Virus record (IMG/VR): IMGVR_UViG_3300032326_000087
Span: 1 to 34,140 of that record
DNA length: 34,140 nucleotides
Direction: 5' to 3' (one strand)
Source of the DNA: a virus
Of this stretch, positions 8,706 to 32,170 are shown in pieces. Under the pieces are notes generated by a model that saw only the letters and a program-made list of their open reading frames with translations, was not told where the DNA came from and made no database searches. Made by a program: the position numbers and the translations under genes. Numbering within the stretch: the stretch's first letter is position 1; each line of letters opens with the position of its first letter.

Positions 8706-11096
8706 ATGGCAGATTTAGGCGCAGCATTTGGCTTTTATCCGCAGTTAAACAGGCGCAGACAAGGTAGCCCTGCTGATTCTGCCAATTTGCCTATTGATGT
8801 TTTACGAGGACGTTTGGCTGGCTTGCTAGGCGCACCTGCTGATATTGCTAATTTACTTAGGTCACCTAGTCCAACAGAGATGTTTGGTGATGTTAGTTAT
8901 GAAGCACCAGCGCAGTTTCCTTACACAACAGAGAAGTTTTTAAAAGATTTACCACTTGCGCCAACATCTAGGGTTGGTCAGGTAGCAGGTCAAGCTGCGT
9001 CATTTGTTCCGCTAAACCCAATGCCAGCCGTTAGAGGTGTGCAAAAGGTAGGACAAGTAGTAGGAGAAGAACTGGCAGCTACTATGATGGGTCAGCGTCC
9101 TAACAGCATGATGAGTAAGGTAGTGCCACAGCCATTGTTTGCTGTTGCCCCAGAGCAAGGCTTATTGGCTACCAAAACAGAGCCTATAGAAAGCCTATTA
9201 CAAGTTAAGCCACAAGCACCAGTTTCTGACATTGGTTTCTATTCCGCTACTGAGCAAGCTGCTTTAAATCTTGGCAGAAACAAGGGAACTGGTCAGTCTT
9301 TCATTAACGACTTGATGAAAGCACCTGATGTTAAGAAGGAAGAACTGCAATTCACAGGATTGGAAGACTTCCTAAGAGACAAGCCTAATGTTACTAAACA
9401 AGAGGTTCAAGACTTCTTGGCTAACAATCGTGTGGATGTTCAAGAAGTAACTTATGGGGCGCAAATAGCTGAAAACCCTGTAGGCATTGCTAAACGCAAA
9501 GAAGTCTTTGACAAGTACGAGCCAGAAATTCAAGCGTTATATAAGGAAATGGACAATCCTAGATATAAGCTAGTTAATAAAGGAATGACTGGAGAAGAAT
9601 ACAATCGTGGTGTTGTCTTGCAAAATAGAACTTTTAGAGGTGAGCCATTAACAGACCAAGAGAAATTTGAATTAGATGACATTTTGAGTCGTCTTGATAG
9701 CATTACTGTTAAAGAATTTGATAATGTTGAAGAAGCAAGAAAAGCCTATTTTGGAATGAATCAAGAAGAAAAATTAAAACATTCGATTAGACCTGTAAAA
9801 AGTCCAAGTGAATTACAACAAGAAATAAATACCATTCAAAATATTAGAGATTCAGAAGCTGATGCTGCTTATGTAGTTCCAGAATCTACGCCTACTAAAT
9901 TTGGTAAATACCAATTAGCTGGTGGTGAGAACTATCGTGAGATATTGCTGACATTGCCAGAAGCAATGCCTAATACAGCACTGGAAATAGAACGATTTAC
10001 AAAACGCATGGAAACTATGCGTGAATTACAAAATGAATTTGCCAATGCAGGTGATATGGAAAAAGCTATTTCATTTGCATCAAAAGCTGACGATTTACAA
10101 GCATATATCAAGCAATTAGAAAAAATACCTGTTACTAAGCAAACAGAAAACTTTGAATCATCTCACTTTGACCAGCCTAATATTTTAGCCCATATGAGGG
10201 TCAATGACCGCATTGATGCTGATGGCAAGAAGATGCTATTGGTTGAGGAAATTCAATCTGATTGGCATCAGGCTGGCAGAGAGAAGGGTTACAAAACCAA
10301 AGAAAGTTTGGAAAAATGGTACGCCCAAAACAAACTTGATGATGACCCATCTTTTGCTGACTTAAATAGTGAGCAAAGAAGCGTTATTGAGCGTAATAGA
10401 AGTGCTGGAATGGGTGGTGATAATGCAGTACCAGACGCACCATTTAAAGACACATGGTATCAGTTGGCACTAAAGCGACTAACCAAGTACGCTGCCGAAA
10501 ACGGATATGAGCGTATTGGTTTGACTACTGGCAAGCGTCAAGTTGAAAGATTTGCAGATGAATTGCGCCAAAATGTTGACGAAATTGCTTTTTCTTCTGG
10601 GTATCCAAGTAAAGATATTACAACAATTAGTGCATCCCAAAATGGCAGACCAACATTTACAGGAACTGTAAAAGACGGAAAGTTTATTGATGGTCAAGCA
10701 CGAGGTAAAACAGTAGAAGAAGTTTTAGGCAAGTCAATGGCAAAGCAGATTGCAGAAAAAGAATCTGGGGTGCTTAAAGGTGATGACCTGACCATTGGTG
10801 GCGAAGGAATGAAGAAATACTATGACGAGATTTATCCTAAGTTTTTGGATAAGTACGGCAAAAAGTATGGTGCAAGCGTAGGTGAAACACAGATAACGAC
10901 AGATTACGCTAGGGATGCAAGCGGAATTCCTGCACAGCGTCCATCAAAAGAAACCATCCGTTATCTAGACATTACTCCTCAAATGAAAGAGGGAACATCT
11001 AAGGGTCAACCTTTATTTGCTGCTACTCCGTTATTACCAGCAACAAGCCTACTAGACGAAGAAAAGCGCAAAGAGATTACAAGTCTGTTAGAATAA
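8706..11096 (+). CDS. Large polyvalent-type phage protein (796 residues)
   Basis: This long protein lies just before terminase. Residues about 1-160 are low in complexity and hydrophobic in places (GRLAGLLGAPADIANLL, AGQAASFVPLNPMPAVRGV). The middle is charged and helical. A conserved core follows: GGENYREILLTLPEAMPNT (about 404), SSHFDQPNILAHMRVND (about 490), LLVEEIQSDWHQAGREKGY (about 510) and DTWYQLALKRLTKYAAENGY with ERIGLTTGKRQ (about 582-613). I recall the EIQSDWHQ..R..GY and W..LALKR....A..NGY..I..T.G motifs from large polyvalent-protein associated domains in phages, where such proteins are thought to be packaged and injected. The C-terminus has GGEGMKKYYDEIYPKFLDKY, also recurrent in that group. 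No catalytic residue can be named. It may be a virion-borne effector. Confidence 0.7.
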   Translation: MADLGAAFGFYPQLNRRRQGSPADSANLPIDVLRGRLAGLLGAPADIANLLRSPSPTEMFGDVSYEAPAQFPYTTEKFLKDLPLAPTSRVGQVAGQAASFVPLNPMPAVRGVQKVGQVVGEELAATMMGQRPNSMMSKVVPQPLFAVAPEQGLLATKTEPIESLLQVKPQAPVSDIGFYSATEQAALNLGRNKGTGQSFINDLMKAPDVKKEELQFTGLEDFLRDKPNVTKQEVQDFLANNRVDVQEVTYGAQIAENPVGIAKRKEVFDKYEPEIQALYKEMDNPRYKLVNKGMTGEEYNRGVVLQNRTFRGEPLTDQEKFELDDILSRLDSITVKEFDNVEEARKAYFGMNQEEKLKHSIRPVKSPSELQQEINTIQNIRDSEADAAYVVPESTPTKFGKYQLAGGENYREILLTLPEAMPNTALEIERFTKRMETMRELQNEFANAGDMEKAISFASKADDLQAYIKQLEKIPVTKQTENFESSHFDQPNILAHMRVNDRIDADGKKMLLVEEIQSDWHQAGREKGYKTKESLEKWYAQNKLDDDPSFADLNSEQRSVIERNRSAGMGGDNAVPDAPFKDTWYQLALKRLTKYAAENGYERIGLTTGKRQVERFADELRQNVDEIAFSSGYPSKDITTISASQNGRPTFTGTVKDGKFIDGQARGKTVEEVLGKSMAKQIAEKESGVLKGDDLTIGGEGMKKYYDEIYPKFLDKYGKKYGASVGETQITTDYARDASGIPAQRPSKETIRYLDITPQMKEGTSKGQPLFAATPLLPATSLLDEEKRKEITSLLE

Positions 11097-18701: not shown

Positions 18702-19007
18702 ATGGAAAACTTTAGACAAACTGCTGTTCATGCTGATGGTGAAGGTGGCATCGTTATTCAAACTCGTCAGGATGTTTCTGACATTGTTGAGCAGAATAAA
18801 AAAGAATATAACTCGTATGACGAAAGAGCAAGATGGTCTGACCAGTTGTTTGGTAACAAGGTTGCATCTATTCCTATGACAGTCATTGATGACCTTAACA
18901 AAGCTGGAATCATGCGTGGCTTTGCTGTTCTTGATGACAAGCGTTTTGCTGCTTGGTTGAATGACCCAATGAATCGTGCATGGCGCACTAGAACTGGAGT
19001 GGTATGA
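18702..19007 (+). CDS. Conserved neck-region protein, 101 residues
   Basis: The product starts MENFRQTAVHADGEGGIVIQ and contains ASIPMTVIDDLNKAGIMRGF and RFAAWLNDPMNRAWRTRTG. The P(M)xVxxDLxxxGI and WLND..NR..RTR.G motifs are ones I recall from small proteins placed between capsid and adaptor in podovirus-like phages. Its role is not known; it may help join the neck. The stop overlaps the adaptor start by four bases. Confidence 0.7.
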   Translation: MENFRQTAVHADGEGGIVIQTRQDVSDIVEQNKKEYNSYDERARWSDQLFGNKVASIPMTVIDDLNKAGIMRGFAVLDDKRFAAWLNDPMNRAWRTRTGVV

Positions 19008-19624
19008 GCCTCTCAACATATTCTGACTTGCAGACTTCAATAGCCAACTATTTGGCTAGGTCTGACTTGACTAGCATCATTCCAGACTTTATTACTCTGG
19101 CTGAGAATCGTTTGCGTAGAGAACTGCGTGTTCGTCAGATGCTAAAGTCTGTAACAACTAGCACAGTCTCTGGTGATGCAACTGTAGAAGTTCCTAGCGA
19201 CTTCTTAGAGATTCGTGATTTTGTCGTAATGACAAACCCAATTCAACCATTGAGTTACTCTAGTCCCTCATCGTTATCTAATGACCCAAGAACATCAGAA
19301 GTTGGTGTTCCTAAGTCTTACACTATTCTTGCTTCTGAGTTTCAGTTAGCACCTGCACCTGATGGCGTATATACGTTAAAGATGCTTTATTACTCTGCGC
19401 CTCCGTACTTGACCAGCAACAATCCATCTAACGTGTTTCTAACTACTGCCCCTGATGGCTTGCTGTATGGCGCATTGGTTGAAGCAGAGCCTTATCTAAT
19501 GAATGATGCTCGTATCAATACATGGGGTTCTATGTACGACAGAGCAATTTCTTCTCTCACTAGGTCTGATGAAAACACTCAGTATTCTGGTGTGCCCCTG
19601 TCAATCAAATTAACTGCAAGGTGA
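19004..19624 (+). CDS. Head-tail adaptor protein, SU10 type
   Basis: The 206-residue product begins MSLSTYSDLQTSIANYLARS and has IIPDFITLAENRLRRELRVR, DATVEVPSDFLEIRDFV, then a beta-rich half (KSYTILASEFQLAPAPDGVY, LKMLYYSAPPYL) and a helix EAEPYLMNDARINTWGSMYD. This is the pattern of the SU10-type/gp11-like adaptor ring that sits below the portal. It is coupled to the preceding gene by ATGA. The fold assignment is by recollected family pattern and position. Confidence 0.85.
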   Translation: MSLSTYSDLQTSIANYLARSDLTSIIPDFITLAENRLRRELRVRQMLKSVTTSTVSGDATVEVPSDFLEIRDFVVMTNPIQPLSYSSPSSLSNDPRTSEVGVPKSYTILASEFQLAPAPDGVYTLKMLYYSAPPYLTSNNPSNVFLTTAPDGLLYGALVEAEPYLMNDARINTWGSMYDRAISSLTRSDENTQYSGVPLSIKLTAR

Positions 19625-19628
19625 AATC

Positions 19629-20015
19629 ATGGCTGAAATGTCTAACTACTTGGAAAATGCTCTTATCAACGTGACGTTGAGAGCAACTAGCTACACAGCA
19701 CCAACAACTGTGTATTTGGCTTTGTACACAACAGACCCGACAGACGCTGATACTGGAACTGAATGTTCTGGCACTAGCTATGCTCGTCAGTCTATTACTT
19801 TTGGTGCGCCCTCCAATGGTGCTTCTACCAATTCTGCTGCTATTGAGTTTCCTCAAGCTGGTGGTGCATGGGGAACAATTACACACATTGGAATCCGTGA
19901 TGCTTTGACAACAGGAAACCTTTTGTATCACTCACCACTAGACGCTTCTAAAACGATTGCAACTGGTGATGTGTTCCGTATTGCTACAGGTTCTTTGTCA
20001 GTAACATTGTCATAA
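19629..20015 (+). CDS. Beta-sandwich tail-associated protein, 128 residues
   Basis: The product begins MAEMSNYLENALINVTLRAT, then TAPTTVYLALYTTDPTDAD, SGTSYARQSITFGAPSNGAS and WGTITHIGIRDALTTGNLL. This is a family often annotated as phage tail fibre or minor tail protein in many phages (signature YLALyT.DPTda.tG.E.....YaRq.i.F), probably a small jelly-roll. It likely sits on the neck or tail. It is separated from the next gene by one base. Role by family only. Confidence 0.75.
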   Translation: MAEMSNYLENALINVTLRATSYTAPTTVYLALYTTDPTDADTGTECSGTSYARQSITFGAPSNGASTNSAAIEFPQAGGAWGTITHIGIRDALTTGNLLYHSPLDASKTIATGDVFRIATGSLSVTLS

Positions 20016-20016
20016 C

Positions 20017-20940
20017 ATGGCGACAGTTAATCTTACGCTTGAGCAACTTGACCAATTTGGGTCATTGGATAGCCTCACGCTAAGTTTAGACTCGTCTGAT
20101 TGGAACTCGACTACACAGAAGAATGTGACAGGGCCGTGGTCAATAGATGGGCTAGACGCATTTAATAATTTAGATGCGTTACCTGCAAGTCTTGACTCAA
20201 GTATCTGGGACACAGCAACTCTGTGGGATGGTGTCGCAGATATAACTACTAACTCTGTTGTTACTGCTAACGCATCAATTTTTTACAATGCTTCTGCGTC
20301 CATAACAGGAAGTGCGGATGTAACAGCATTAGGTCAGATTGCCCTATTTGGTAGTGCTGACATACAGGCTTCAGCAAGCGTAACTGCTGCTGGGCAACGT
20401 ATTGCGTTTGGTGTGGCTAGTATTACGGCTAACGCTGATGTAACTGCTGTTGGCTCTAAGTTTGCTGCTGCAAGTGCAAGCATTACTGCAAATGCAGATG
20501 TAAGCGCATCTGGTCAAATTGTTCAAGACGCTAGTGCAAGTATTACTGCTAATGGTGTCTGTGAAGCTAACGCAGAGAGAATCCAGTTAGGCGTTGCGTC
20601 TATTACTGGTGATGCAACAGTAACTGCTAATGGTGGATTGACTGTAGGTGCTGTAGCAAGCGTAGAGGCTAATGCTAATGTTGTCGCTAGTGCGTCTGCA
20701 ATTTATGCAGGGGTAGCCTCGGTATCAGGTCTAGCAACAATTATAGCTAAAGGCGTTATCCTTGGTGACAATTGGACTCCAGTAGCAGGTGACAGTAATA
20801 CTTGGACACCAGTTAGTGCTGATTCAAACACTTGGACACTTGTTATTAGAGACACAAACACATGGACTCCAGTATCTGCTAATGACAATACATGGACGAC
20901 ACAGATTCAAGGAAGTAATACATGGCTACGACAAGGGTAA
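20017..20940 (+). CDS. Repeat-solenoid virion protein, 307 residues
   Basis: The protein is made of three repeat types. Residues 9-65 carry two copies of a motif LD.(F)..LD(S/A)L..SLDSS.W. Residues 74-246 are nine units of exactly 20 residues with the pattern ASIT.NADVTA.GQ......, for example ASITANADVTAVGSKFAAAS; this suits a beta-helix or stacked beta-hairpin fold. Residues 251-307 contain six tryptophans at exactly 10-residue spacing (253, 263, 273, 283, 293, 303) in NTWTPV-type units. It lies between neck and gp10-like genes and overlaps the latter by 19 bases, so a tail appendage or fibre is likely. Similar ASI/TA repeats occur in aquatic phages as I recall, with unknown function. Confidence 0.7.
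   Translation: MATVNLTLEQLDQFGSLDSLTLSLDSSDWNSTTQKNVTGPWSIDGLDAFNNLDALPASLDSSIWDTATLWDGVADITTNSVVTANASIFYNASASITGSADVTALGQIALFGSADIQASASVTAAGQRIAFGVASITANADVTAVGSKFAAASASITANADVSASGQIVQDASASITANGVCEANAERIQLGVASITGDATVTANGGLTVGAVASVEANANVVASASAIYAGVASVSGLATIIAKGVILGDNWTPVAGDSNTWTPVSADSNTWTLVIRDTNTWTPVSANDNTWTTQIQGSNTWLRQG
20236..20937 (+). repeat. Tandem 60-bp and 30-bp coding repeats
   Basis: Bases 20236-20754 hold nine diverged copies of a 60-base unit (the last partial), and 20770-20937 hold about five and a half copies of a 30-base unit with the codons for N-T-W. Both are in frame with the virion protein and unit lengths are constant, while DNA sequence has diverged, so the protein period has been kept. 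Confidence 0.75.
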
Positions 20941-22358
20941 CATTTGGTGAGTGGATGCCTGACCAATCAGGTATTTCTGGCTCGTTGACGGATGCCAAGA
21001 ACGTGGTGTCTCAGGCTATCGGGTACGGCCCATTCCCTACTCCAGTATCTTTATCAAGCGCAGCAGCAGAGAACTTAACTTCTTTGTATGCAGCTAAAGC
21101 CCCTGATGGCAATACAGTATTGTTTACGGCTGGCTTGTCAAAGATTTATACAGTTGGCGGTTCTGGAACACTTACGCAAGTAAATACAGGATTGACAACA
21201 AACGCAAACGAAAGAATAAGATTTACTCAGTTTGGTAAGAGCGTCATTATTTGCAATAACGCTGATAAGCTAAAGTCTTGGGTGCTTGGTACTTCTAGCA
21301 CATTTACTGAAGTAGCAGCTACTGCGCCTATTGCTAAATACATTACTGTAGTGCGTGATTTTGTCGTGGTTGCAAATACGCTAGAAACGACACAGCAACC
21401 ATATAGAGTTCGTTGGTCAGCTATCAATGATGAGACTGATTGGGTAGAAAATGTAAACACTCAGTCTGACTATCAGGATATTCCTGATGGCGGTCAGATT
21501 GTAGGAATCCGTGGTGGTGAGTTTGGTCTAGTTTTGCTAGAGCGTTCTATTCACAGGATGACTTATGTGGGTACACCTTTTATATTCCAGTTTGACAACA
21601 TCTCTAGGAATAAAGGTTGCGCTGTAGCTGGTTCTATTACTCAGTACCAAGGCATTACATTCTTCTTGTCAGACGATGGTTTCTATATGTGTGACGGACA
21701 GCAAGTTATTCCGATTGGGGCAGAGAAGGTTGATAGGTTTTTTTTAAGTGACGCAAGCGAGACAGACTATTCAACTATGTCTGCCGCTATTGACCCTGTT
21801 CGCAAACTTGTAATCTGGAATTACAAAAGTGTAGATGCTGTTCGTAAACTGATGATTTACAACTTCCAGACTAAAAAATGGACTTATGGCGATGCTAATA
21901 CTGATTACTTGGGTGAAGCATCATCAGGCGCATTGACGCTTGAGGAACTAGATGCTATATCTGGTTCTATTGACGCTTTAACAACAAGTTTAGATTCTTT
22001 GTTATATATCGGTGGTAAGTATTTCTTAGGTGGAACTTACGGAACGAGGGTTTACTCCTTTACTGGCGCAAACCTTACAGGAAGCATTGCAACTGGCGAC
22101 ATAGATTTAGGCGCAAACTCAGTAGTAACCCTAGCTAGACCTATTGTTGACAATGGCTCTGGCTCACTATCCATTGCTTCACGCACATTGCTAAACCAAA
22201 GTGTTACTTATGGTGGCTCAACTGCTGCTGACTCTGAGAACAGGGTTTCTTTGCGTAGTGCTGGTAGGTATCACAGATTAAAGCTAACACCTACTGGTGC
22301 GGCTTGGAAGACTGCGGTGGCGGTAGATGTGGATGTTACGCCACAAGGGGTTCGCTGA
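20922..22358 (+). CDS. Tail hub/nozzle protein, gp10-like
   Basis: The 478-residue beta-rich protein begins MATTRVTFGEWMPDQSGISG and repeats short blade-like strands (LYAAKAPDGNTVLFTAGLSK, RIRFTQFGKSVIICNNADKL, VVRDFVVVANTLET, RVRWSAINDETDWV). Such a propeller-like layout with WSAINDETDW is typical of P22 gp10-like DNA stabilisation or nozzle proteins of podoviruses. Residues about 340-360 hold LDAISGSIDALTTSLDSLLY, the same SLDS motif as the preceding gene. It would close the tail channel after packaging. Name by pattern and position. Confidence 0.75.
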   Translation: MATTRVTFGEWMPDQSGISGSLTDAKNVVSQAIGYGPFPTPVSLSSAAAENLTSLYAAKAPDGNTVLFTAGLSKIYTVGGSGTLTQVNTGLTTNANERIRFTQFGKSVIICNNADKLKSWVLGTSSTFTEVAATAPIAKYITVVRDFVVVANTLETTQQPYRVRWSAINDETDWVENVNTQSDYQDIPDGGQIVGIRGGEFGLVLLERSIHRMTYVGTPFIFQFDNISRNKGCAVAGSITQYQGITFFLSDDGFYMCDGQQVIPIGAEKVDRFFLSDASETDYSTMSAAIDPVRKLVIWNYKSVDAVRKLMIYNFQTKKWTYGDANTDYLGEASSGALTLEELDAISGSIDALTTSLDSLLYIGGKYFLGGTYGTRVYSFTGANLTGSIATGDIDLGANSVVTLARPIVDNGSGSLSIASRTLLNQSVTYGGSTAADSENRVSLRSAGRYHRLKLTPTGAAWKTAVAVDVDVTPQGVR

Positions 22359-23131
22359 TGTTCAGAAGCCTACCCGCTTTTGGTGGTGACCAGAGGGCTG
22401 TAGCCGAGGTAGTCCGTGGCATCATGGACGGAAAGACCAATAACACAGGGACTTTGACTCTGGCAACTGGTGGTGCTACTACAACCACTTTGACAGACCG
22501 AAGGATAGGCCCAGACAGCGTTATCTTGTTTGCCCCTGCTTCTGCTGCGGCTAACGTGGACTATATGCCTTATGGGGCGTTTCAGAGCCTTGTTGACCAA
22601 ACTGTTGCATCTGCAAATACTGCCTATGCAATGACATTAGACACAACTGATTACTCTAATGGCATAACTCTATCCAATAGTTCTAGGATGAACGTCAAAA
22701 ATACAGGAATTTATAACTTCCAATGGTCTGGTCAGTTTGAGAATACTGACTCGCAAGACCATGACGCTAGGGCTTGGATAAAAATCAACGGAACGAATCT
22801 TACTGGTTCAACAGGCTTTTTTGCTATTCCTAGCAAGCATGGCTCAGTTAATGGACATGGTTTAACTGGATGGAATTACTATTTAAGTTTAAATGCAAAT
22901 GATTATGTCGAGTTATGGTGGGAGACTGATAGCACTGCTGTGAGCCTCCAAGCCTATGCTGCTGGAACAAATTACCCCTCTACAGCGTCTTTGATTACTA
23001 CAATGAACTACATCTCTCCGTCTGCTTTGACGAACATCTACGCTAGTTCCCAAGGACAGGGTACGGCTACGATTACCCACTTTGCCAATTCGACTGCAAA
23101 CAAGACATATCGGTATGCAATTATTGGTTGA
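22358..23131 (+). CDS. Tail fibre-type protein with jelly-roll domain, 257 residues
   Basis: The ATG shares one base with the previous stop (TGATG), which fixes the start. An N-terminal segment (RSLPAFGGDQRAVAEVVRGI, MDGKTNNTGTLTLATGG) is of the kind seen in phage tail fibres. The rest has the strand order of a C1q/TNF-like jelly-roll: TAYAMTLDTTDYSNGITLS, KNTGIYNFQWSGQFENTD, DARAWIKINGTNLTGSTGF, NYYLSLNANDYVELWW. Such domains occur at trimeric fibre tips and may bind receptors. The C-terminal strand block (TITHFANSTANKTYRYAIIG) is not identified. Confidence 0.7.
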   Translation: MFRSLPAFGGDQRAVAEVVRGIMDGKTNNTGTLTLATGGATTTTLTDRRIGPDSVILFAPASAAANVDYMPYGAFQSLVDQTVASANTAYAMTLDTTDYSNGITLSNSSRMNVKNTGIYNFQWSGQFENTDSQDHDARAWIKINGTNLTGSTGFFAIPSKHGSVNGHGLTGWNYYLSLNANDYVELWWETDSTAVSLQAYAAGTNYPSTASLITTMNYISPSALTNIYASSQGQGTATITHFANSTANKTYRYAIIG

Positions 23132-27552: not shown

Positions 27553-27831
27553 ATGGCAAAGACAAAAATTAGTGAGTTTAGCAGTAACCCTGCAAATAAC
27601 ACAGATATTGATGGAATTAACATTGCAGAGGGCTGTGCGCCATCTGGAATTAACGATGCTATTAGAGAGTTAATGGCTCAGTTAAAGGATTTACAAGCAG
27701 GTACTAGTGGAGATACAATCCCTATAACTGCTGGTGGTACAGGCGCAAGTACAGCAGGTGCAGCATTAACAGCACTTGGTGGCGCATCAACAGGAAAAGC
27801 TATCGCTATGAGCATGGTGTTTGGAGGCTAG
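27553..27831 (+). CDS. Short tail fibre-like protein, 92 residues
   Basis: The product begins MAKTKISEFSSNPANNTDID and GINIAEGCAPSGINDAIREL, the N-terminal attachment motif of many phage fibre proteins ((N/T)TDI(D/G)GINIAEGC.PSGIN.AIRELMAQ), followed by ITAGGTGASTAGAALTALGG. Usually a long fibre follows; here it ends after GKAIAMSMVFGG. It may be a complete small adaptor onto which the separate adhesin proteins are built, or a remnant of a longer fibre. Confidence 0.75.
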   Translation: MAKTKISEFSSNPANNTDIDGINIAEGCAPSGINDAIRELMAQLKDLQAGTSGDTIPITAGGTGASTAGAALTALGGASTGKAIAMSMVFGG

Positions 27832-28282: not shown

Positions 28283-29155
28283 ATGTCCAAAAGAGTAGGT
28301 GGAATTCTAAGTGCTGGGCTTAACGGCATTAACTACCCTGTGACAGCGGTGGAATACTTATGTGTGGCTGGCGGGGGTGCGGGAGGCGGCACTATTGGCG
28401 GTGGTGGTGGTGCTGGTGGTTTATTAACCGCTACTGGTTATGCCGTTACTATCGGGTCAGCAATCACGATAACTGTTGGTGCGGGCGGTGCTGGTTCTAC
28501 AAGCAATGGCGTACAAGGTTCAAACTCTACTCTTGTTGGTGGAACAACCATTACAGCGACTGGTGGTGGCTATGGTTCTGTTTCTGACCAAGTAGGTGGT
28601 AATGGTGGCTCTGGTGGTGGTGCTGGTGGTGAAACTGGCACTTCTAGAGCCGCAGGAACTGGCACTTCTGGGCAAGGTTTTGCTGGCGGTGCTAACGGAA
28701 CTGCAAACAAATATGGCTCTGGTGGCGGTGGCGGTTCTGGTTCTGTAGGTATTGCTGGAACTGCATCTGTTAGCGGTAGTGGTGGTACAGGCACAACATC
28801 ATCTATTTCTGGTTCTGCAATTCAATACGCTGGAGGTGGCGGCGGTGCATCTTCACAAACTGGTGGCGGTACTGTTGCTGGTCTAGGTGTGGCTGGTGGT
28901 GGTGATGGCGGTACTTATGGTGGTACTGCTGGTAAAACTGGCCTTGCAAATACAGGCTCTGGTGGTGGTGGCGGTGGATACACAGGAAGCGGTAGTGCTT
29001 ATAACGCTGGCGGCTCTGGCGGCTCTGGCATCGTAATCATCCGCTACCCATCTTACTTAGCCCCTGCTACATCAACAACAGGCTCACCAGAAACTTATGT
29101 CACAGGCTTTTGGCGTGTGTACAGATTCGTTGCCTCTGGCACGATTACTTTCTAA
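28283..29155 (+). CDS. Glycine-rich putative adhesin 1 (290 residues)
   Basis: Anchor type I (MSKRVGGILSAGLNGINYPV) leads to VEYLCVAGGGAGGG, then about 200 residues dense in G, S and T with runs such as GGNGGSGGGAGG, GSGGGGGSGSVGIAGTASVS and TGLANTGSGGGGGGYTGSGS. The end is GGSGGSGIVIIRYPSYLAPA with a terminal GFWRVYRFVASGTITF. Long glycine runs of this kind form polyglycine-II sandwiches in phage receptor-binding proteins. It is one of four paralogues in this array. Receptor binding is inferred from composition and place. Confidence 0.8.
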   Translation: MSKRVGGILSAGLNGINYPVTAVEYLCVAGGGAGGGTIGGGGGAGGLLTATGYAVTIGSAITITVGAGGAGSTSNGVQGSNSTLVGGTTITATGGGYGSVSDQVGGNGGSGGGAGGETGTSRAAGTGTSGQGFAGGANGTANKYGSGGGGGSGSVGIAGTASVSGSGGTGTTSSISGSAIQYAGGGGGASSQTGGGTVAGLGVAGGGDGGTYGGTAGKTGLANTGSGGGGGGYTGSGSAYNAGGSGGSGIVIIRYPSYLAPATSTTGSPETYVTGFWRVYRFVASGTITF

Positions 29156-29163
29156 GGGTAGAT

Positions 29164-30045
29164 ATGGCTACAGGATTATTTACTCTTAAACAAGTTAACC
29201 AAGCACTTGCACAAAAGGCATGGAGTGGTACGCAGAAAACTAACTATGTTGAATATTTAGTTGTTGCGGGTGGTGGAGGTGGTGGCTATTCCGCTAGTGG
29301 CGGTGGCGGTGCGGGAGGTTTGCTAACAGGGATTTTGCCTGTTGCTACTGGTGTTTCTATTACTGCGACTGTAGGCGGTGGAGGTGCTGGTGGAACTAGT
29401 GTTAATGGCGTTAATGGGGTTGCTTCTGTCTTTTCAACTATCACGGCTACGGGCGGTGGAGGTGGTGGATTTGGTGGTCTTGGTACATCTTCAGCTGGTA
29501 GTAGTGGTGGCTCTGGTGGCGGTGGAGGTGGCGATGGAACTGCTACTGTTTCAGTAGGAGGTTCTGCCGTATCAGGACAAGGTAACACAGGAGGGAGTTC
29601 CTCTGCTACAACTTCAAATTACAACGCTGGAGGCGGTGGCGGTGCAGGGACTGTCGGTTTAAATGCCCCATCTGGTTCTAATGCGGGTGTAAATGGCGGT
29701 GCGGGTATTGCATCTGCAATTTCTGGCTCTGTTGTTACTTATGCTGGTGGTGGTGCGGGAGGCACAAACGCAACTACTTATGGTACTGGTGGTGTTGGGG
29801 GTGGTGGCAATGGTGGTGGTAGCGGAGGCTCACCAACTGCTGGTGGCACAAATACTGGTGGTGGCGGTGGAGGTAGTGACTATGCTGCAAATGGCGCAGC
29901 AGGAGGCTCTGGTATTGTCATCATTCGCTACCCAAGCACATTTGCTGATGCTGCAAGCGTTTCAGGCACACCAACTCCAGTAAAAACAACAGCAAACGGG
30001 TATACGATTTATACTTTCATTGCTTCTGGAACTATCACCTTTTAA
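29164..30045 (+). CDS. Glycine-rich putative adhesin 2 (293 residues)
   Basis: The start at 29164 (MATGLFTLKQVNQALAQKAW) is preferred to an earlier in-frame ATG inside the previous gene. Anchor type II (TL.Q.NQAL....WSG) is followed by YVEYLVVAGGGGGGY and the glycine-rich domain (FGGLGTSSAGSSGGSGGGGG and SGGSPTAGGTNTGGGGGGSD), ending GGSGIVIIRYPSTF and YTIYTFIASGTITF. It shares the ends with adhesin 1 but has a different anchor, like adhesin 4. A separate gene for each adhesin, all with ribosome sites, suggests all are made. Confidence 0.8.
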   Translation: MATGLFTLKQVNQALAQKAWSGTQKTNYVEYLVVAGGGGGGYSASGGGGAGGLLTGILPVATGVSITATVGGGGAGGTSVNGVNGVASVFSTITATGGGGGGFGGLGTSSAGSSGGSGGGGGGDGTATVSVGGSAVSGQGNTGGSSSATTSNYNAGGGGGAGTVGLNAPSGSNAGVNGGAGIASAISGSVVTYAGGGAGGTNATTYGTGGVGGGGNGGGSGGSPTAGGTNTGGGGGGSDYAANGAAGGSGIVIIRYPSTFADAASVSGTPTPVKTTANGYTIYTFIASGTITF

Positions 30046-30053
30046 GGACAAGC

Positions 30054-30926
30054 ATGAGCAATTTATTAGGTGGATATTTGTCGGCAACATTTAACCCTTT
30101 ATCTGGCGCACCTACGACTGTTGAATATCTAGTGGTAGCTGGTGGGGGTGGGGGTGGTTGGAACTTTGGCGGTGGAGGTGGTGCGGGTGGTTTATTAACT
30201 GCGGCATCGTTTGCTGTTGCTACTGGTTCTGTTTTGACAGTTACTGTTGGTGGTGGCGGTGCGGGTTCAAGCACAACTGCCGCTGGTAGCAATGGACAGG
30301 ATTCTGTTTTTAGCTCTATTACCGCAACTGCTGGTGGAGGTGGTTCTAGTAATGGCTATCAAAATGGCTCAACTGGCGGCTCTGGTGGTGGTGGTGGTGG
30401 CCCTGATTCAAACTCAACAACCATAACTGGCGGTTCTGGCACTTCTGGTCAAGGCTTTGCTGGTGGCAATGGCTCAAGATTAACTACTAATGGCAGTCAA
30501 GGTGCTGGCGGTGGCGGTGGCGCAGGGTCTATTGGCGTGGCAAATAGTTCGGGACAAGCGGGTGCTGGCGGTGCTGGTCTTTGCTCAAGCATTACTGGTC
30601 AAAGAGTGTTTTATGCTTGTGGTGGTGGTGGTGCGGGTTACACACCATTTAGTGTTCAAGCGGGTCTTGCTTGTACTGGTGGTGGTAATGGTTCATCTTT
30701 GGATGCACAAGCAGGATTTAATGCATTAGCAAATACTGGCTCTGGTGGTGGTGGAAATGCTGGTGGCGGTGTCGGTGTGGGTGGTAATGGAGGCTCTGGC
30801 ATTGTCATTATTCGTTACCCTGCATCACAATCAGCGCCAACTGCAACAACTGGTTCACCACAAATCAACTACGCAGACAATTATCAAATTTACACTTTTA
30901 CGTCCTCTGGGACAATCACTTTCTAA
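30054..30926 (+). CDS. Glycine-rich putative adhesin 3 (290 residues)
   Basis: Anchor type I again (MSNLLGGYLSATFNPLSGAP), then VEYLVVAGGGGGGW and the glycine-rich domain with GGSGTSGQGFAGGNGSRL and GAGGGGGAGSIGVANSSGQ. It contains two cysteines (CSSITGQRVFYACGGG) and another in GLACTGGGNG, unusual in this family. It ends GGSGIVIIRYPASQSAP and YQIYTFTSSGTITF. Length equals adhesin 1. The variable middle suggests different receptor specificity from its paralogues. Confidence 0.8.
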   Translation: MSNLLGGYLSATFNPLSGAPTTVEYLVVAGGGGGGWNFGGGGGAGGLLTAASFAVATGSVLTVTVGGGGAGSSTTAAGSNGQDSVFSSITATAGGGGSSNGYQNGSTGGSGGGGGGPDSNSTTITGGSGTSGQGFAGGNGSRLTTNGSQGAGGGGGAGSIGVANSSGQAGAGGAGLCSSITGQRVFYACGGGGAGYTPFSVQAGLACTGGGNGSSLDAQAGFNALANTGSGGGGNAGGGVGVGGNGGSGIVIIRYPASQSAPTATTGSPQINYADNYQIYTFTSSGTITF

Positions 30927-30936
30927 GGAGAATATT

Positions 30937-31287
30937 TTGAGCCATTTTGCACACATCACAAACGGCATCGTTGACCAAGTAATCGTCATTGACGCTGAAA
31001 CCTTGGCTTTAGGTCATTGGGGTAGCCCATCTGAGTGGGTTCAAACAAGCTATAACACTCATGGCAACCAACATCCTGAGAACCGCCCATTGCATAAGAA
31101 CTATGCTGGCATTGGCTACACATGGGATGGAACAGGCTTTGCCCCTCCACAACCATTTGCATCTTGGACTAAAAACTCTACGACATATCTGTGGGATGCA
31201 CCAACACCTATGCCTGTTGAAGAAGGAAAATTCTATCGCTGGGAAGAATCTACATTGTCATGGGTTGAAGTAACTCAAGGGGCTTAA
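30937..31287 (+). CDS. Virion-type protein with TTG start, 116 residues
   Basis: A full AAGGAG lies six bases before a TTG start (30937), giving MSHFAHITNGIVDQVIVIDA. The body has TSYNTHGNQHPENRPLHKNY, AGIGYTWDGTGFAPPQPFAS and TPMPVEEGKFYRWEESTLSW. I recall close relatives among T4-like cyanophage structural proteins (NYAGIGYTYD..(D)AFIPPQPFPSW). It is placed between adhesins 3 and 4 and shares no anchor with them; it could be a chaperone or cap for the adhesins, or an independent particle protein. Confidence 0.75.
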   Translation: MSHFAHITNGIVDQVIVIDAETLALGHWGSPSEWVQTSYNTHGNQHPENRPLHKNYAGIGYTWDGTGFAPPQPFASWTKNSTTYLWDAPTPMPVEEGKFYRWEESTLSWVEVTQGA

Positions 31288-31288
31288 C

Positions 31289-32170
31289 ATGGGCCAATAT
31301 TCTGGGATGTGGACACTAAGCCAAGCGTCCCAAGCCATTAAAGACAACAACTGGACAGGACTGCCTCCGCAGAATGTGGAGTATTTGGTTGTTGCTGGTG
31401 GTGGTGGTGGTGGTGGTTATGGTGGCGGTGGTGGTGGTTCTGGCGGTTTACTAGCAGGTTTTTCTGGTGTAACTGCGGGTACTCAATTGTTTGTAACTGT
31501 TGGTGGTGGTGGTGCGGCAGGAGTAGGTAGCACAGGAACTAACGGAACTATTGGGTTTAACTCTGTTTTAATTGCTACAAGTAACGGGGCTTATACAGGA
31601 AATCTTGTAGCCACAGGCGGTGGCGGTGGAATGGGTGGCGGTTCTTCTACGCTTCAAGCTGGTGGAGGTTCTGGAGGAGGAGCTGCTGGTTCTAATTACT
31701 CAGGCAATGGTGCTTCTGGTATATCTGGTCAAGGCAATTCTGGTGGTGCTTCTGGAGGAGCATCTGGATTTAGTGGTGGAGGTGGAGGCGGTGCGGGTAC
31801 TGTTGGAATAAATGGTGGTACTACGTTTGGTGGTAATGGTGGTGCTGGCATCGCTAGTGCCATATCTGGCTCAGTTAATGTATACGCTGGAGGTGGAGGG
31901 GGTTCATCTTACCTACCCTACCCAGTTGGTTCTGGTGGGGCTGGTGGTGGCGGTGCTGGCAATACAACTTCTGGTACTGCAAACACAGGCGGTGGTGGCG
32001 GTGGCGGTATCAATCTTGCAAATGGCGGCACAGGCGGTAGCGGTATCGTAATCCTCCGCTATCCAGACACATTTATAGCCGCTACAAGCACAACAGGTTC
32101 ACCAACAATTACTGTGGCTGGTGGGTTTAGAGTTTATAAATTTACGGCATCTGGCTCTATTACTTTCTGA
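31289..32170 (+). CDS. Glycine-rich putative adhesin 4 (293 residues)
   Basis: Anchor type II (MGQYSGMWTLSQASQAIKDN then NWTGLPPQNVEYLVV) is followed by AGGGGGGGYGGGGGGSGGLL and the glycine-rich domain, with the most regular GGT codon runs of the array (31395-31440). It ends GGSGIVILRYPDTFIAA and FRVYKFTASGSITF. It starts one base after the TTG-start gene ends. It is closest in anchor to adhesin 2, so genes 1-2 and 3-4 look like a duplicated pair with an inserted gene. Confidence 0.8.
   Translation: MGQYSGMWTLSQASQAIKDNNWTGLPPQNVEYLVVAGGGGGGGYGGGGGGSGGLLAGFSGVTAGTQLFVTVGGGGAAGVGSTGTNGTIGFNSVLIATSNGAYTGNLVATGGGGGMGGGSSTLQAGGGSGGGAAGSNYSGNGASGISGQGNSGGASGGASGFSGGGGGGAGTVGINGGTTFGGNGGAGIASAISGSVNVYAGGGGGSSYLPYPVGSGGAGGGGAGNTTSGTANTGGGGGGGINLANGGTGGSGIVILRYPDTFIAATSTTGSPTITVAGGFRVYKFTASGSITF

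Follow-up and report, generated by a model that had tools for sequence, protein, structure and literature searches.

A 20-residue repeat protein encoded between the gp80-family and nozzle genes of a GP4/SU10-type podovirus is a candidate accessory tail fibre

Two described podophage tail components lie closest to the locus studied here. One is gp80 of podophage GP4 (PF23140, GP4 fibre I protein), for which a solved structure is available (PDB 8jou); the other is the short tail fibre gp16 of phage SU10, whose gene immediately precedes that of the SU10-type nozzle and whose trimer has a central domain resembling T4 gp12. Shafts with a beta-solenoid fold have been described for adhesins and tailspikes. 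In this study, we analysed a repeat protein whose gene, like that of gp16, directly precedes a nozzle gene and whose direct upstream neighbour is a clear member of the gp80 family. We put the probability at roughly 0.55 that this protein serves a GP4/SU10-type podovirus as an accessory tail fibre or spike, forms a narrow two-sided beta-solenoid and cooperates with the fibre I protein of the gp80 family.

The window, i.e. the whole stretch of DNA analysed, is a freshwater phage virus record of 34,140 bases. It carries the SU10 families of major capsid protein (PF17236, E 5.7e-101), portal (PF23899, E 7.4e-216) and adaptor (PF24175 SU10_adaptor, E 5.6e-37) in order, as well as a nozzle gene, and the phage is thus a GP4/SU10-type podovirus. 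Four neighbouring genes on the plus strand stand in the order adaptor, gp80, repeat protein and nozzle: the adaptor gene (19004..19624), the gp80-family gene (19629..20015; 128 aa, Pfam E 9.9e-52, and E 1.2e-14 against chain a of 8jou), the repeat gene (20017..20940; 307 aa with an ATG start in the ORF list) and the gene for the nozzle, or tail stabilisation, protein (20922..22358; 478 aa, phrog_3287, E 1.2e-69). The 3' end of the repeat gene overlaps the start of the nozzle gene, the product of which matches a solved nozzle (8zkk). This position within a tail operon is in keeping with the first-pass annotation. Elsewhere in the window, the listed TTG start of the ORF at 22304-23131 overlaps the nozzle gene, and conservation suggests that the true start is near 22352. 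A 796-residue ORF before the terminase (8706-11096) contains an endolysin-like stretch (phrog_7348, residues 452-617) and has, in addition, a sub-threshold Ntox4 match.

The repeat protein can be divided into three parts, and its layout is shared by 83 or more homologues. The N-terminal segment (residues 1-71; 20017..20229) contains two copies of an LDxxxSxDxLxxSLDSxxW motif. It is followed by a shaft (residues 72-251; 20230..20769) of nine gapless 20-residue coils with the consensus GxASITANADVTANGxRVQF, as had been noticed at first sight, except that the first unit, which fits the consensus most poorly, begins at base 20230 (residue 72) and not at 20236, the units extending to about 20769. 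The last part (20764..20937), which ends in NTWLRQG and can be read as three more coils, is a ladder of six Trp at residues 253, 263, 273, 283, 293 and 303; the ten-residue steps are exact as first described, but six Trp make five steps and not six. Autocorrelation of the shaft at lag 20 was 1.53 BLOSUM units per residue (42% identity), with a maximum of 0.41 in 500 shuffles, and the whole protein gave z = 13.8 at this lag, the other virion proteins of the window reaching no more than 1.2 for a 20-residue period. Pairwise comparison of the DNA of the units found 19-38 of 60 bases identical, which agrees with the original remark that the copies have diverged and the period has been kept. The gene is under purifying selection, with a dN/dS over its last 156 residues of approximately 0.2-0.4 against relatives (median 0.27 in 400 pairs).

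Relatives were drawn from a viral contig scan (best 80 of 114 confirmed), a profile scan (at least 371 confirmed) and phage records, and 131 distinct complete proteins were analysed; as these sequences are related, the counts are not independent events. Unit spacing was 20 residues in 1118 of 1124 cases (the odd ones being 19, 21, 22 and 41) and Trp spacing was 10 residues in 621 of 624 (the odd ones being 11 and 14, the 14-residue step in contigs L170 and L173). The near constancy of both spacings across 131 relatives indicates that the regular period is not due to chance and supports the first-pass view that it is enforced. The number of units ranged from 3 to 14 and varied by whole units, as had been predicted. 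In 124 of the 131 proteins, the first Trp follows the beginning of the last unit by 21 residues, so that the Trp occupy coil positions 2 and 12 with one on each predicted strand, and distinct uninterrupted ladders have two, four or six Trp (two accidental Phe/Tyr extensions in the shaft were set aside), with four or six in nearly all members; MW202879, with three Trp, is the exception to the even count. Since the Trp stay in register with the coils and their count is even in nearly all families, the true unit throughout is probably the 20-residue two-strand coil, and what had been taken for a separate tip with a 10-residue unit of its own is, judged from this pattern, probably two or three further coils with their rungs in twos. 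The odd coil positions 3, 5, 7, 9, 11, 13 and 15 are occupied almost only by Ala, Gly, Val, Ile or Cys, and the even positions mostly by Ser, Thr, Asn and Asp. Two members of the family stood apart in form: one on contig L166 (2017-2737) is split into two overlapping frames, likely by a natural or sequencing frameshift, and one on contig L450, a gp80-adjacent coil protein of 884 residues with four Trp rungs, is by far the longest seen.

Structure prediction was in keeping with this pattern at low confidence. The AF2 monomer (mean pLDDT 50.5, pTM 0.41) had a strand every 10 residues, at unit positions of about 1-7 and 11-17, with a pLDDT of 55-68 in the shaft that fell to about 30 in the region of the Trp ladder. 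A Foldseek search of the PDB with this model gave nothing significant. A second-look structural aligner placed curli CsgA at the top (VIA Z 18.1, rmsd 8.4), followed by TPS domains, FHA and other beta-helices at Z of about 11, and BFVD held similar predicted proteins from uncultured phages. A second AF2 model, built for the last five coils plus the Trp part from 87 sequences, reached a pLDDT of 65; because DSSP assigned no structure to it and Foldseek found no match, it was treated as failed. AF2 is reported to over-predict beta-solenoids for repeats (PMC11795689), and for this reason the model was weighed lightly and the sequence pattern was taken as the main support. The beta-solenoid shaft suggested by the first-pass annotation is therefore kept as a low-confidence two-sheet model resembling two-sided beta-solenoids, while the description of the C-terminal part as Trp-stacked finds no backing in either model.

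The N-terminus differs in kind among relatives. At least four kinds were found (the LD motif, an FxEAPF type, RITE repeats and YG repeats), the LD segment being replaced in other members by MADLLPPW... or MFGxxSFSQAPFSSL.... The LD motif recurs at residues ~341-362 of the nozzle, where the stretch LDAISGSIDALTTSLDSLLY (21948-22010, nozzle residues about 343-362) closely resembles the N-terminal segment of the repeat protein. The variability of the N-termini, together with an LD motif common to the nozzle, suggests that this segment is probably an exchangeable anchor, which would attach the rod to the tail in the gp80/nozzle region. The idea that the LD motif reflects co-evolution of the repeat protein and the nozzle found no support, as the alignment showed the motif to be conserved in nozzles whether or not the phage has a repeat gene. 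A 92-residue fibre anchor (MAKTKISEFSSNPANNTDIDGINIAEG...) stands alone at 27553-27831 of the window; in contigs L001, L003, L167 and L169, a fibre encoded immediately after the repeat gene carries this anchor as part of its own chain.

The gp80 and repeat genes occur together. Among approximately 170 relatives, gp80 lay upstream of the repeat gene in 163 and the nozzle gene downstream in 162, mostly directly, and the repeat gene directly adjoined the nozzle gene in 150 of these loci as well as in the window. Where a nozzle locus was seen with its adaptor, 55 loci had both genes, 17 had neither and none had only one. Parsimony on the nozzle tree required four changes in gp80/repeat presence, at least two of them on well-supported branches, and in the close relative MW202710 (nozzle 71% identical) the adaptor and nozzle genes abut directly. 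Taken together, the co-presence, the tree changes and the abutment in MW202710 indicate that gp80 and the repeat gene are probably an optional module. In phage C72C1 (contig L086, 1680-2881), the annotation divides the major capsid gene into two parts separated by small ORFs on the minus strand, possibly through an insertion or intron.

Relatives of gp80 were found in 335 phage records, and the 20-residue period of the adjoining genes was counted as present at z of at least 3. The gene after gp80 gave z values of 10.9 in MW202879, 9.5 in MEP401, 5.7 in C72C1, 4.5 in DSL-LC06, 4.3 in PBC5, 3.4 in BcepMigl, 3.3 in CRP-5 and 3.1 in phiM5, and these distant genes carry the period yet escape sequence search; an unrelated control, HTVC106P gp54, gave 3.7 from its own 10-residue repeats. 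In contigs of three distant gp80 clades, obtained with three gp80 queries, the downstream gene reached the threshold in 46/50, 15/24 and 47/55 cases (108/129 in total) and the upstream gene in 0/60, 1/24 and 0/71 (1/155 in total). In PVJ1 and Lietuvens, the coils form the N-terminal part of a Mu Gp48-type baseplate protein, those of PVJ1 preceding the Mu Gp48 domain itself (PF10076, E 1.6e-21). It is not true that every gp80 has a coil neighbour, the exceptions including the mycobacteriophages Redi, Quesadilla and Silverleaf as well as ACP17 and DB2. The window protein follows directly on a PF23140 gene and has a significant 20-residue period, the two features that define this gp80-adjacent coil family. 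We tentatively propose, as a possibility short of even odds, that gp80 and a beta-solenoid of 20-residue coils make up a widespread unnamed two-gene tail module of podophages and phages with contractile-type baseplates, gained and lost as a pair, in which the coil number would set the length of the shaft and the surface Trp ladder of the last coils would bind one conserved target.

For the window protein itself, we infer that each 20-residue unit would form one coil of two short strands, with Ala, Gly, Val and Ile inside and Ser, Thr and Asn outside, and that in the two or three coils at the end of the shaft every strand would bear a Trp at the equivalent position, giving two short ladders of Trp on the surface. 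A competing view of the shaft accepts the same location in the tail and holds that the units form an intertwined trimer, three chains sharing one beta core, the monomeric solenoid being an AF2 artefact. Most podophage fibres are trimers, among them the long and short fibres of SU10 (PMC9509320), core residues as small as these could be accommodated between chains, and both the solenoid bias of AF2 and the low monomer pLDDT speak for the trimer; however, the alternation of polar residues outside and small aliphatic ones inside on both predicted strands fits a single-chain two-sided coil, changes by whole 20-residue coils are what a single-chain coil predicts, and the CsgA-like match reaches Z 18.1. 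None of these points is decisive, and we consider the trimeric shaft rather unlikely. As to what the Trp ladder does, the Trp are invariant in 87 of 87 aligned sequences where the ladder is present, and the Trp part is the most conserved region of a protein whose shaft and N-terminus vary. Receptor-binding tips are mostly not the most conserved part of a fibre, and the C-terminal Trp part differs in this respect, which counts against the reading as an accessory fibre or spike. Its conservation suggests one conserved target, and the ladder may bind either another component of the tail or a molecule common on cell surfaces. A narrower version, in which an adhesin or a partner fibre docks onto the ladder, which would then not be a receptor-binding face, draws on the same contrast between invariant Trp positions and variable remainder and on the SU10 nozzle, where Trp 839, 847 and 857 hold the short tail fibre (PMC9509320). 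Nevertheless, no partner was identified, the four glycine-rich proteins of the window being the only adhesins examined, and these glycine-rich adhesins (28283-32170) cannot be the general partner because PF21722 is present in only one of 22 related records. Docking of this kind is thus a reasonable possibility that we hold with less than even confidence. The four PF21722 paralogues lie at 28283-29155, 29110-30045, 30054-30926 and 31289-32170, and the one related record with such adhesins, contig L004, likewise has four.

Presence in the virion, which the first-pass annotation took for granted, is a matter of inference, and the virion proteomes reported for JC1 and phiM5 do not include the homologues. 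In JC1, gp53 of the gp80 family was detected in virions and gp54 is absent from the list (PMC9144972); gp54 is the coil protein (z 4.4) and has 10 detectable tryptic peptides. Similarly, the note 'detected in phage particle proteome' is attached to the gp80 homologue phiM5_17 but not to phiM5_18, which has two suitable tryptic peptides only. These observations favour a helper role outside the virion, in which the protein would be expressed from the tail operon to act as a chaperone or assembly factor for gp80 or other fibres and would then be left out of the particle, and perfect co-presence with gp80 would also fit a dedicated chaperone. On the other hand, low-copy parts may be missed, given that the JC1 tail fibres gp57 and gp59 are likewise absent from the virion list (PMC9144972), and a proteomic miss says little for the window protein, which gives a single tryptic peptide of 7-25 aa. 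BcepMigl gp57, which has the same position and period, is annotated as 'virion associated protein' (an annotation only), and the coils of PVJ1 and Lietuvens belong to a baseplate protein. We regard the helper as improbable and an accessory fibre or spike present in the virion as the preferred reading.

The repeat family is uncharacterised and, with several hundred members in public virus contigs, probably represents a tail part not yet described. Searches of Pfam, PHROGs, NCBIfam and the PDB gave no match to it, those of the PDB with the whole protein or the Trp part staying at chance level, and a search of GTDB genomes with one member as query found no prophage relatives. The labels carried by homologues ('serine-rich adhesin', 'E3 ubiquitin-protein ligase HERC6' and 'hypothetical') are uninformative or wrong and can be replaced. 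Owing to the strict unit, the length of the shaft can be counted from sequence, making the relation of coil number to tail geometry testable, and the gp80 pairing predicts a partner for a fibre protein of solved structure (8jou).

Described systems share some features with the family and differ from it in others. The repeat protein is not itself gp80, having no sequence match in 8jou, and gp80 occurs in mycobacteriophages without a coil neighbour. No sequence match to SU10 gp16 was found in the PDB, the model fold is too unreliable for comparison, and the 20-residue coils and ladder of Trp that make up the repeat protein contrast with the gp12-like domain of gp16. Curli CsgA, which the low-confidence model resembles best, also has two strands per repeat; however, its units are of 22 residues with the curlin Gln/Asn ladder, while the repeat protein has units of 20, lacks that ladder and is encoded by a phage tail gene, and the curlin repeat profile gave no Pfam match to it at E 1, the consensus lacking the motif. 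FHA/TPS haemagglutinin beta-helices have a similar unit length, but the window protein has no secretion domain, its gene lies in a virion operon and Pfam gave no FHA/TPS match to it, the relative in L001 staying below the cut-off (TPS E 0.026, Fil_haemagg E 0.05). The Mu Gp48 proteins of PVJ1 and Lietuvens are gp80-adjacent and have the same kind of N-terminal coils, although in those two phages, which have contractile-type baseplate genes, a baseplate domain absent from the window protein is joined to the coils. Beta-solenoids are a known kind of structure, and the pairing with gp80 is the more interesting result.
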